Below, one piece after another: positions 2,249 to 5,047 of a stretch of DNA of 14,331 nucleotides. The number at the start of each line of letters is the position of its first letter. Position 1 is the first letter of the stretch. A program made the translations under genes and the position numbers. The notes beneath the pieces were generated by a model, which was given only the letters and a program-made list of their open reading frames with translations, had not been told where the DNA came from and did not search any database. The DNA comes from Acidimicrobiia bacterium (GTDB lineage Bacteria; Actinomycetota; Acidimicrobiia; Acidimicrobiales; Ilumatobacteraceae). The stretch spans positions 1 through 14,331 of the forward strand of contig RGSV01000011.1 in assembly GCA_010025655.1 (NCBI GenBank), written 5' to 3'.

Positions 2249-3397
2249 ATGAGTTACGTGCTGCCCCCGCCGCCACCCTCGGAGTATGAGTCGGCGCACT
2301 CAGGTCAGTCGTCGGCCAAGCCACGGTTGTGGCGCATCGCATTGCTCGCCGTGCTGCTCTCGGTGATCTCAGGCTTCATCGGTGGTGTGATCGCCACACA
2401 ACTTGACGAGACGACGGCTGCGACAGATGAGCCGTACACGCAGGTGACCTCAGCGCCAGTTGTGTCTGATGCTGAGGCGAGTGACGCGACGTCGGTGGCG
2501 CTTGTCGCGCAGCGTCTGGCCAACAGCGTCGTCACGATCTCCGCGCAGGTAAGCGGTGCAATGGGCGATGGTGAAGCAACGGGCACTGGTGTGGTGATCA
2601 CCAGCAGCGGTGAGATTCTCACCAATGCACACGTCATCGAAGGTGCGACGGAAGTGCGTGTGCGGTTCGCCAACGACACCGAACCGGTCGACGCTCGCGT
2701 GTTGGCCTTCGACACGGGCAACGATCTTGCGTTGCTCAAGGTGAACGCGAGCAACCTCGTGGCTGCAACATTCGCCAAGCCTGGCAGCGTGCGTGTCGGC
2801 GACCCAGTGGTGGCCATCGGTTACGCCCTGGCTCTCGATGGTGGCCCCAGCGTGACGACCGGAATCGTGTCGGCACTGAAGCGCACGATCTTCACCGACT
2901 CCGGTGCGCTGAACAGTCTCATTCAAACCGACGCTGCAATTTCGTCGGGCAATTCTGGTGGTCCGCTCGTGAATCTGCGTGGTGAGGTCGTGGGCATCAA
3001 CACCGCCGTAGCCCGTGGCGATTCGAGTTCTTCGGCGAACAACATCGGCTTTGCGATCTCGGTTGACGAGACGCTGACCGTGCTCGAGCAGCTGCGTAGT
3101 CAGGCGGCCGGCGAAGAGCGCACCGAGGGGTTCCTCGGTGTCAGCATCGACTCGCGCACCGATGGTGGCGCTGGCTCGATCATCACGACCGTGCAACCCG
3201 ATTCTCCAGCCGAGGCAGCAGGCATCCTCGAGGGTGACGTGGTGCTGGCGGTCGACGGCGAGCCGGTCAACGGCCAGGCGGGCCTGGTGGCCGCAATACG
3301 TGACCGCAACCCCGGTGACACCATCGAGATCGACCTCGTGCGTGACGGTGAACGTCTCACGGTGTCGGCCACGCTGGTCGCCCGCCCCAAGAATTAG
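2249..3397 (+). CDS. Membrane-anchored trypsin-like serine protease with one PDZ domain (HtrA/DegP family)
   Basis: This is a probable extracytoplasmic quality-control protease of 382 residues. The N-terminus is short, cytoplasmic and proline-rich (five consecutive prolines at 6-10). One hydrophobic segment at about 29-50 acts as signal anchor, followed by a Ser/Thr/Ala-rich linker to about 85. The chymotrypsin-fold domain (about 86-285) has a complete catalytic triad: His128 in TNAHVIEG, Asp159 in GNDLALLK and Ser236 in SSGNSGGPL. One PDZ domain (about 293-380) includes GFLGVSI, SPAEAAGI and GDVVLAVDGEPV. The length fits single-PDZ actinobacterial HtrA/PepD-like proteins, but no specific orthologue can be named. 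It starts 35 bases after rpsJ with a weak ribosome-binding site, and a strong hairpin follows its stop. Its position inside the S10 gene order is unusual. Substrates are unknown. Confidence 0.93.
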   Translation: MSYVLPPPPPSEYESAHSGQSSAKPRLWRIALLAVLLSVISGFIGGVIATQLDETTAATDEPYTQVTSAPVVSDAEASDATSVALVAQRLANSVVTISAQVSGAMGDGEATGTGVVITSSGEILTNAHVIEGATEVRVRFANDTEPVDARVLAFDTGNDLALLKVNASNLVAATFAKPGSVRVGDPVVAIGYALALDGGPSVTTGIVSALKRTIFTDSGALNSLIQTDAAISSGNSGGPLVNLRGEVVGINTAVARGDSSSSANNIGFAISVDETLTVLEQLRSQAAGEERTEGFLGVSIDSRTDGGAGSIITTVQPDSPAEAAGILEGDVVLAVDGEPVNGQAGLVAAIRDRNPGDTIEIDLVRDGERLTVSATLVARPKN

Positions 3398-3406
3398 CCG
3401 CCTGGC

Positions 3407-3431
3407 ACGGCGCCGTACGGTACGGAGCCGT
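3407..3431 (+). terminator. Hairpin just after the protease stop, possible terminator without T-tract
   Basis: A near-perfect inverted repeat begins ten bases after the protease stop codon: ACGGC, one G/A mismatch, CCGT, loop ACGGT, then ACGG and GCCGT. That makes nine base pairs around a five-base loop. No run of T follows (next bases AGGGAAG), so it would be a hairpin-only or Rho-assisted 3' end, a processing barrier or an RNA stabiliser and not a classical intrinsic terminator. The stem is seen directly; the function is inferred. Confidence 0.45.
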
Positions 3432-3565
3432 AGGGAAGAGCCAGTCACCGCCCCTCGCTCGGGTGAGCCACCGCCTCGGGTGGGGTAGGCGTAAACGCCC
3501 GATAGCGTGCCAAGTCGCGTTTGGAGGGGCTCACGCCACTTCATTCGCAGTCGTCAGTTGATACC

Positions 3566-3581
3566 GCGGGGCGTGCTCCGC
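3566..3581 (+). promoter_or_regulatory. Leader hairpin carrying a second copy of both terminator arms
   Basis: GCGGGGC (3566-3572) and GCTCCGC (3575-3581) form a tight stem with one G-U pair. The same two 7-mers form the outer stem of the terminator at 3643-3673, in reverse order. The first can therefore pair with 3643-3649, with two more C-G pairs possible across a one-base bulge (3564-3565 with 3651-3652). The second can pair with 3662-3668. Either pairing would stop the terminator forming, which is the arrangement expected of an antiterminator. The sequence identities are seen; the switching is inferred. Confidence 0.45.
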
Positions 3582-3642
3582 ATCCAATTGATGTCTGTGT
3601 GCGCCTGATTCGTCAGGTACCTCACAGCGAAAACGATCTCGG

Positions 3643-3673
3643 GCTCCGCCGGCTGTGCCGTGCGGGGCTTTTT
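3643..3673 (+). terminator. Intrinsic terminator or attenuator 106 bases before rplC
   Basis: The 5' arm GCTCCGC CGGC (3643-3653), loop TGT (3654-3656) and 3' arm GCCG, bulged T3661, GCGGGGC (3657-3668) give an eleven-pair stem with one G-U, followed directly by five T (3669-3673). This is the textbook layout of a Rho-independent terminator. It stands between the protease and rplC. Because no good promoter is visible downstream, it more likely attenuates a leader transcript than simply ending the upstream unit, but both are possible. Confidence 0.72.
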
Positions 3674-3779
3674 CGTGGAAGCGAAACGAGACCGCAGTCG
3701 CGGTGCGGGCACACGAAGCAGAGAACAACGTCGCGACGGCACCGTCACGACAACGAAGTCGCAACAGAAAAGGTTCACC

Positions 3780-4421
3780 ATGGCACAGAAAGCGATCGTC
3801 GGCGAAAAGGTCGGCATGACGCAAGTGTGGACGAACGACCGTCGCGTCGTGCCCGTCACCGTCTTGCGCGTCGAGCCCGCTCGCATCGTGCAGGTGAAGA
3901 CGAATGCCACCGACGGCTACAACGCTCTGCAAGTGACCTTCGGTCAGAAGGACGAAAAGAAACTCACCAAGGCCGCAGCGGGCCACTTCGCGAAACACAA
4001 CGTGGCACCCGGTCGTCGTCTCGTTGAATTGCGCCTCGATTCAGTCGACGGCTTTGAAGTCGGACAGGAAATCGGCGTTGACAAGTTGGCGGCGGGCGAA
4101 ATCGTCGATGTCACCGCCGTCAGCCGTGGTAAGGGTTTTGCTGGTGGCATGAAGCGCCACAACTTCCAAGGCCAGGGTGCGGCACACGGTAACCACAAGC
4201 ACCACCGCGCCCCAGGTTCGATTGGTCAGCGCTCATTCCCTGGTCGCGTGTTCCGTGGCATGCGCATGGCGGGTCATCTCGGCCACCAACAAGTCACCAT
4301 CATGAACCTTGAAATCGTGCAGGCCGATGCCGAGCGCAACCTGTTGCTCGTGAAAGGTGCTGTACCTGGCCCCAACGGTGGCGTCGTCATCGTGCGCAAC
4401 GCAGTGAAGGGCGGCAAGTAG
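3780..4421 (+). CDS. rplC: 50S ribosomal protein L3 (uL3)
   Basis: L3 is an early-assembly protein of the large subunit that reaches towards the peptidyl transferase centre. It is 213 residues, standard for bacteria. Motifs are the N-terminal IVGEKVGMTQVW (6-17), SRGKGFAGGMKRHNF (115-129), HRAPGSIGQ (142-150), FPGRVFRGMRMAGHLG (153-168) and NLLLVKGAVPG (187-197). The ATG at 3780 is chosen because it gives the family N-terminus MAQKAIVGEK and has AGG six bases upstream. The frame is open back to 3660, but that extension runs into the terminator and is not family-like. The residue aligned by eye with E. coli Gln150, the PrmB methylation site, is Ser152. It heads the packed operon, two bases before rplD. 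Confidence 0.98.
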   Translation: MAQKAIVGEKVGMTQVWTNDRRVVPVTVLRVEPARIVQVKTNATDGYNALQVTFGQKDEKKLTKAAAGHFAKHNVAPGRRLVELRLDSVDGFEVGQEIGVDKLAAGEIVDVTAVSRGKGFAGGMKRHNFQGQGAAHGNHKHHRAPGSIGQRSFPGRVFRGMRMAGHLGHQQVTIMNLEIVQADAERNLLLVKGAVPGPNGGVVIVRNAVKGGK

Positions 4422-4423
4422 TC

Positions 4424-5047
4424 ATGGCGAAACTCACGATGAAGAACCCCGCCGGCAAGAACGCCGCCAGCATCGAGTTGTCGGATGATTTCTTTGGCGT
4501 CGTGCCGAACGTCGCCGTGATGCACCAGGTCGTGGTCGCCCAGCTGGCTCATCGTCGCGCCGGTACCCAGAGCACCAAGGGTCGCGCCGAGGTCAGTGGT
4601 GGTGGCAAGAAGCCGTTTAGCCAAAAAGGCACGGGTAACGCCCGTCAAGGCTCGATTCGCGCGCCGCAGTTCGTCGGTGGTGCAGTCACGCTCGGCCCGA
4701 CGCCACGCAAATACAGCCAGCGCACCCCGAAGAAGATGGTGCAGTTGGCGTTGCGTTCGGCGCTTTCTGATCGCGCCCGCGACGGCAAAGTTGTGGTTGT
4801 CGACGCCTGGTCGTTCGATAAGCCGAGCGCCAAGGCCGGTGCTGCGGCACTCGCCGCCCTCGGCACGAGCGGCAAGGTGATGGTCGTCGTGAAGAGCGCG
4901 ACGAGCGACGCCGCCAAGAGCCTGCGCAACCTTGCCGATGTGCAGGTCGTGCTGACGAGCGAACTCAACGCCTACGACGTGCTCGTCAACGACTGGATCG
5001 TGTTCTCGCAAGACAGCCTGCCCACCAGTGCCGGAGGTGCGAAGTGA
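4424..5047 (+). CDS. rplD: 50S ribosomal protein L4 (uL4)
   Basis: L4 binds 23S rRNA, and its long loop lines the constriction of the exit tunnel. In E. coli it also represses its own operon through the S10 leader. It is 207 residues. The tunnel loop runs from about 50 to 98 and includes the basic KK (62-63), [15 protein letters not shown] (67-81) and GPTPRKYSQ (91-99). The globular domain follows with LRSALSDRA. The start ATG is two bases after the rplC stop. The end overlaps rplW by four bases (GTGA), implying translational coupling. If the leader upstream of rplC is an attenuator, L4 is the first candidate ligand by analogy with E. coli. That is inference only. Confidence 0.98.

Follow-up and report, generated by a model that had tools for sequence, protein, structure and literature searches.

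Does the long ribosomal-protein operon that starts at rplC in this Acidimicrobiia genome have a leader RNA of its own and, if so, how would that leader act? The window, that is, the whole 14,331-nucleotide stretch of DNA analysed here, comes from a 1.52-Mb assembly. In it, tuf (675-1859) and rpsJ (1899-2213) are followed by a gene for a trypsin/PDZ (HtrA-like) protease (2249-3397) and then, after a gap of 382 nucleotides, by rplC (3780-4421, plus strand; Pfam Ribosomal_L3) and rplD (4424-5047, plus strand; Pfam Ribosomal_L4, E 1.1e-61), encoding the ribosomal proteins L3 and L4. Our Pfam check covered these five genes; from gene order and translation, we take the reading frame upstream of tuf to be the end of fusA and the genes after rplD, as far as secY, to be those of an S10-spc-type operon. 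The count of 21 genes from rplC to secY agrees with the list of open reading frames, the names being given by gene order. In the putative controlled unit, rplC is the first gene and rplD, the second, encodes the candidate regulator.

The answer that we favour, and hold to be reasonably probable, is that nucleotides 3585-3681 form a cis-acting ribosomal-protein leader of the rplC-secY operon, acting as an attenuator in the genus of the window. We read it as such because a covarying RNA precedes the same ribosomal-protein operon, behind what appears to be its own promoter. The conserved element lies directly before rplC and consists of a hairpin (P1), a linker and a second hairpin (P2), all on the plus strand. 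P1 (3593-3628) comprises the pair G3593-C3628, the stem 3595-3599/3623-3627, an internal loop, the pair G3603-C3620 and the stem 3604-3608/3613-3617, closed by a TTCG loop. The single-stranded linker (3629-3642), GAAAACGATCTCGG in the window, has a consensus that begins with ACAACCGAA and is conserved in our alignment A1. P2 (3643-3668) has the arms GCTCCGC/GCGGGGC and an inner stem CGGC/GCCG; it is followed by a run of five T (3669-3673) and by a tail (3674-3681; CGTGGAAG) with the consensus GCGTGAA, also conserved in A1. Nearly all loci in relatives show the same block: (C)AAYCGACGTC, P1, the linker ACAACCGAA, P2 arms GCTCCGC/GCGGAGC and the GCGTGAA tail, the internal loop of P1 reading NNNG on one side and NACC on the opposite one. 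The arm sequence of P2 is nearly invariant across the order, with three arm pairs being C-G in all 81 leaders aligned. Such invariance would carry little information on pairing and suggests instead a constraint on the arm sequence itself. A regulatory leader had already been placed before rplC, and not before rpsJ, in the original prediction, and we find it there; P1, the conserved partner of the terminator, had been overlooked.

Of 100 genomes searched, 93 yielded an rplC gene (that of the window among them), and 90 rplC regions were analysed, leaving out three with a partial gene (G026, G049 and G067). A model built from 30 leaders finds 87 of the 90 loci, the window among them, at E <= 2.2e-5; this includes 57 of the 60 loci not used in building it, some of which are close kin of those used. 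The exceptions are L083, with a weak match (24.5 bits), L085, with no match, and L090, with a partial one. Alignment A3 holds 81 of the 90 loci, since L006, L014 and L025 were omitted as near copies and L050, L060, L081, L083, L085 and L090 as weak, cut or missing. The distance from rpsJ to rplC could be measured in 27 of the 90 loci, where rpsJ falls in the stretch, and varies from 173 to 2823 nucleotides; these 27 all have a clear leader except L083, L085 and L090, which are counted in that range. A protease match between rpsJ and rplC is absent in some relatives. As both gap size and protease presence vary, the interval looks tolerant of insertions, with the leader staying with rplC.

Is this element a structured RNA? 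In the MAFFT alignment A1, which was not fitted to any structure, 95.6% of the cells pair, and two-sided changes occur at 13 of the 21 pairs (77 cells, against 20.9 ± 3.5 in shuffled alignments). The covariation score of 0.389 compares with 0.155 ± 0.012 after shuffling and with at most 0.106 when the structure is slid along the alignment. For P1 alone, in 40 sequences, two-sided changes are found at 9 of the 11 pairs (83 cells against 23.0 ± 4.1). In a mutual-information scan run with no structural input, six pairs from the P1/P2 helices come first (z 9.8-13.4). Several column pairs outside the helices (71-82, 82-103, 17-113 and 91-106) also score high, a sign of shared descent. Columns 18-48 and 19-44, in the internal loop of P1, covary in the same scan, mostly without standard pairing, which suggests a structured loop. 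Mapped on a tree of the L3 protein, A3 yields at least 102 double switches from one Watson-Crick pair to another, 85 in P1 and 17 in P2, a count that leans upward because A3 was fitted to the structure. Covariation thus backs a structured RNA, strongly for P1 and thinly for P2. The comparison of relatives that had been proposed as a check of the original prediction is therefore favourable to P1, less so to P2, and goes against the upstream arms at 3566-3581, which are not conserved within the genus. We also tried a third hairpin at the GCGTGAA tail and did not adopt it: 78.9% of its cells pair against 74.8% in shuffled alignments (19 of 500 being as high), two-sided change is seen in 2 of 3 pairs, and the signal is weak at best.

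Where would transcription of this RNA begin? An EM motif search upstream of P1 returned CCGATAGCGT, represented in the window by CCGATAGCGTGC (3499-3510, plus strand), with TAGCGT at 3503-3508 as the putative -10 element. Scored with a matrix derived from these very sequences, the -10 exceeds 5 in 56 of 81 leaders, compared with 6 of 81 shuffled ones. The triplet TTG, which was not used in the motif search, lies 16-18 nucleotides upstream of the -10 in 32 of 56 relatives, against 0-4 of 56 at each of the other spacings from 8 to 31. At the corresponding -35 position (3480-3485, plus strand), many relatives have TTGNNN and the window has a weak GTGGGG. An earlier consensus promoter scan of the window had found none, since the motif differs from its E. 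coli counterpart. From the position of the motif, the most likely start of rplC transcription is near 3515, which would give the rplC-secY unit a 5' UTR spanning 3515-3779 on the plus strand. Between P2 and rplC, a -10 of the conserved type is absent from the window and present in 1 of the 81 leaders, in agreement with the earlier statement that no convincing promoter separates the terminator from rplC. With a putative promoter upstream of P1 and such -10 elements nearly absent after P2, the 21-gene unit most likely must pass P2, as had been proposed.

The original prediction also called 3643-3673 an intrinsic terminator. Within the genus this reading fits the sequence: the hairpin is followed by a T-run, the longest within 8 nucleotides after P2 measuring 5-6 in 11 of 11 members (the window and 10 others, out of 12 genus members with rplC, L006 being omitted as a near copy). 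It does not extend further. The run is 3 long in 31 and 4 long in 4 of the 39 other family members, 0-2 in 26 of 31 members of the order, and never above 4 in the 70 leaders outside the genus; for these counts a text pattern defined where the stem ends, and one row was truncated. As the long U-run is limited to the genus, P2 qualifies by its sequence as a standard intrinsic terminator only there and, with no long U-run after P2 elsewhere, attenuation would not be the ancestral mode. Outside the genus, P2 would either terminate with help or do something else.

In energy terms, 3640-3676 folds at -22.0 kcal/mol, against a mean of -14.1 for shuffled sequences. Shorter stretches fold as P1 plus P2, unlike the whole of 3515-3800, where pair probabilities are 0.06-0.08 for the lower stem of P1, 0.63 for P2 and 0.97-1.0 for an upstream hairpin that we call P0. 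In this longer fold, a longer version of P0 is possible at 3554-3592, in which CAGTTGAT pairs with ATCCAATTG and the hairpin reaches the 5' flank of P1; P0 in this form would compete with P1.

Could P0 be the antiterminator of a two-state switch? This was the core of the original prediction: copies of the two terminator arms at 3566-3581 would pair with the arms themselves, making terminator and antiterminator mutually exclusive. The window reads GCGGGGCGTGCTCCGC at 3566-3581 and GCTCCGCCGGCTGTGCCGTGCGGGGCTTTTT at 3643-3673, and the duplication is real: each 7-mer occurs twice on the plus strand of the window (3566 and 3662 for one, 3575 and 3643 for the other) and once elsewhere on the opposite strand. 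Chance recurrence of GC-rich 7-mers had been given as the main weakness. Both recur in 5 of 20,000 dinucleotide-preserving shuffles of 3509-3641, rarer than a chance explanation would have it, yet the two arms are not independent; since a hairpin that copies one arm also copies the other, the coincidence, though real, is modest. P0 (3566-3581, plus strand) turns out to be a variable, genus-level feature outside the conserved element. Several genus members have some hairpin at this site with other arms; both 7-mers are found in 1 of 11 members, the window only, while L003 has one of them and L002, the closest relative (rplC 98% identical), has GTGGGG/CCCCAC at the 3566-3581 site. Folds in which the antiterminator pairings are forced reach -56.2 and -55.1 kcal/mol, about 14 worse than the -70.0 of the terminator fold. 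With both the genus comparison and the fold energies disfavouring it, we reject the copied-arm switch, which we now consider close to untenable.

Without the copied arms, P2 might still be no more than the terminator that ends the rpsJ-protease unit and play no part in regulating rplC. Its position after the protease gene and its good hairpin and U-run in the genus would suit such a role; but this account does not explain why a conserved promoter motif precedes P1, why P1 covaries, why P1-P2 stays with rplC while the upstream region changes, or why the long U-run is confined to the genus, and we regard it as highly improbable. A leader sensing a signal other than a ribosomal protein, be it a small molecule, a Nus factor or a trans-acting RNA, would account for the possibly aptamer-like aspect of P1, with its conserved internal loop and its two covarying, mostly non-standard column pairs, and for the lack of any rRNA resemblance above chance (see below). 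Such a signal is nonetheless improbable, given that the strong matches examined sit in front of rplC in an operon for ribosomal proteins, a kind of operon usually controlled through feedback by one of its own products.

A more serious alternative, although in our opinion an unlikely one, is a post-transcriptional leader: a ribosomal protein bound to P1-P2 would repress translation of rplC or alter the decay of the message, P2 contributing to the site of binding and the U-run being incidental. The near-invariant arms of P2 fit recognition better than a plain terminator stem, a long U-run is absent outside the genus, and in 34 of 81 leaders only 18-59 nucleotides lie between the end of P2 and the start codon. 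However, the full range of this distance is 18-154 nucleotides, so there would be no fixed blocking of the ribosome site, and the 5-6 T after P2 in every genus member would have to be a coincidence. These observations can also be arranged in an evolutionary scenario, which we put forward tentatively, as a possibility. The recognition hairpin P1 would have been kept class-wide while the expression platform evolved: P2 would ancestrally be a sequence-specific element other than an intrinsic terminator (serving protein contact, assisted termination or translation control), would have gained a U-run and become an attenuator in the genus of the window, and would have been lost or replaced in a few families. 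It would let the acquisition of a U-run be traced on a tree within one family of leaders.

Returning to the leader as an attenuator in this genus, we propose the following course of events. Transcription would start near 3515. A ribosomal protein encoded by the operon, when in excess over rRNA, would bind P1 at its internal loop, perhaps contacting P2 as well; the bound leader would favour a stop of the polymerase at P2 and its U-run, and stopping there would lower the expression of the 21 genes. In relatives beyond the genus, where P2 has no long U-run behind it, the same leader would have to rely on a weaker or assisted terminator or on a step after transcription. By analogy, the most likely ligand is L4, with L3 as second candidate, L4 being favoured as the protein known to regulate the S10 operon of E. 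coli, a system marked by L4 binding and NusA dependence. Whether the partner is L3, L4 or another ligand would also help to tell how frequently leaders of unrelated origin have converged on a single protein.

How does this leader compare with known ones? In Rfam 15, the window has 0 matches at the gathering cut-off; a relaxed threshold gives 3 matches in 3380-3800, all far below the cut-off, and 11 matches in 17 relatives, none of them at the leader. The suggested comparison with Rfam ribosomal leader families therefore yields no family that matches at the leader. No description of this leader appears among the matches listed in the literature searched, a search with most subscription papers outside its scope. 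Table 1 of Eckert and Weinberg 2020 (PMC7247131), as far as that table goes, includes no S10-operon leader for Actinobacteria. The best reading, as far as Rfam and the literature searched go, is that the rplC leader is a previously undescribed ribosomal-protein leader of class Acidimicrobiia.

The E. coli S10 leader is alike in serving an S10-type operon that encodes L3 and L4, and in having a regulatory site upstream of a terminator-type hairpin; it differs in its position before rpsJ, the Acidimicrobiia leader being before rplC. In the view given in PMC10931766 (section 3.3), L4 bound to upstream elements probably helps the polymerase stop at the attenuator hairpin, and the L4 site of E. coli is reported there as not widely conserved, even within gammaproteobacteria. 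An intrinsic terminator like that of the E. coli leader is present, judging from the letters, in 11 of 11 members of the window's genus and not in the 70 other relatives. The hairpins of the E. coli leader resemble P2 and P1 by eye only: in the locus examined (L318, 2840-2905, minus strand), GCTCC/GGAGC is followed by TACGTAAGAAC, with a neighbouring CTACC strand. Neither of our two covariance models matches the E. coli S10 leader. A GCTCC/GGAGC hairpin within 200 nucleotides before rpsJ was found in 0 of 30 gammaproteobacterial loci (rpsJ was present in 98 of 114 genomes); by eye, most of these 30 loci have the end of a tuf-like reading frame before rpsJ. The L4 r-leader of Archaeoglobi, as described in Table 1 of PMC7247131, precedes the same first genes (rplC, rplD, rplW, rplB), with L4 as proposed ligand; it belongs to an archaeal lineage, and we compared it by description. 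The Firmicutes S10 r-leader and the Peptostreptococcaceae rpsJ motif (RLC-47-1) are likewise leaders of S10-type operons (PMC7247131 and PMC11109978); compared again by description, they differ in belonging to other phyla, and the rpsJ motif in preceding rpsJ.

Does the leader mimic rRNA? The full model, the P1 model and strand-wise matrices gave nothing above chance against four 23S loci, so that mimicry offers no basis for assigning a ligand. The only suggestive place is in domain I of the 23S rRNA of L091 and L093, where GGAACGTCGCGCCACA is close to the 3' strand of P1. In L091 this site scores 8.8 bits (E 0.79) with the full model and 7.4 bits (E 3.7) with the P1 model; by matrix it ranks second in L093 and falls outside the four best in L091, L092 and L094. 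Domain I of 23S is named as an L4 target in the literature.

How far does the leader extend? Model R2 has a match in at least 182 of 395 sampled genomes of the class. This is a lower bound: incomplete genomes are numerous, stricter filters were applied, and G106, at the least, was missed. That genome belongs to genus g121 of the same class, where the leader takes a less G+C-rich form (L144 and L146): the whole-genome search found G165 and missed G106. In a sample of the phylum, 38 of 396 genomes match, of which 29 belong to the class. The full-model matches outside the class, in 9 genomes, are weak (25-31 bits) and have no rpsJ or rplC within 3 kb or up to the contig end. With P1 alone as model, 11 genomes of the phylum outside the class match at E <= 0.05, with no L3 or S10 gene in these loci, the best one (G693, 39 bits) included. 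Among the best whole-genome matches, rplC is the next gene in 42 of 42 loci, many of these from genomes already used.

We also selected 29 genomes, 24 listed without a match in the class or phylum sample and 5 with one, of which 26 gave an rplC gene. Among the class loci examined outside the order, 13 have no leader; in every one of them no more than about 60 nucleotides separate rpsJ from rplC, and no P1 match precedes rpsJ. Since the leaderless class loci examined outside the order have rpsJ and rplC joined, the leader appears to go with a separate rplC unit, which suggests that control sits at rplC where the two genes have separated. Two loci of the order, L141 and L142 (the same genome as L085), have a gap between rpsJ and rplC and no leader match. 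Five others in the class (L138, L139, L145, L148 and L149) have a recognisable P1 and no P2, as seen by eye and in weak matches. Acidimicrobiia are known mostly from uncultured genomes; for this class, the element described here would be the leader RNA of a very long ribosomal-protein operon.

A DNA pattern confined to the leader, with 20 fixed bases, was also run on a genome collection that by its own description covers 84,980 species. Among the matches listed, rplC lies 46-264 nucleotides downstream in 67 of 80 loci; of the remaining ones, 2 run into the end of the contig and 11 lack rplC at that place. Most of the listed records with the leader in front of rplC bear the title Acidimicrobiia, Acidimicrobiales or a taxon within them, or Actinomycetota and the like. 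Two records titled Bifidobacterium breve and Acidobacteriota (L258 and L268) carry the leader together with an rplC 61-68% identical to that of the window, and their titles are probably wrong.
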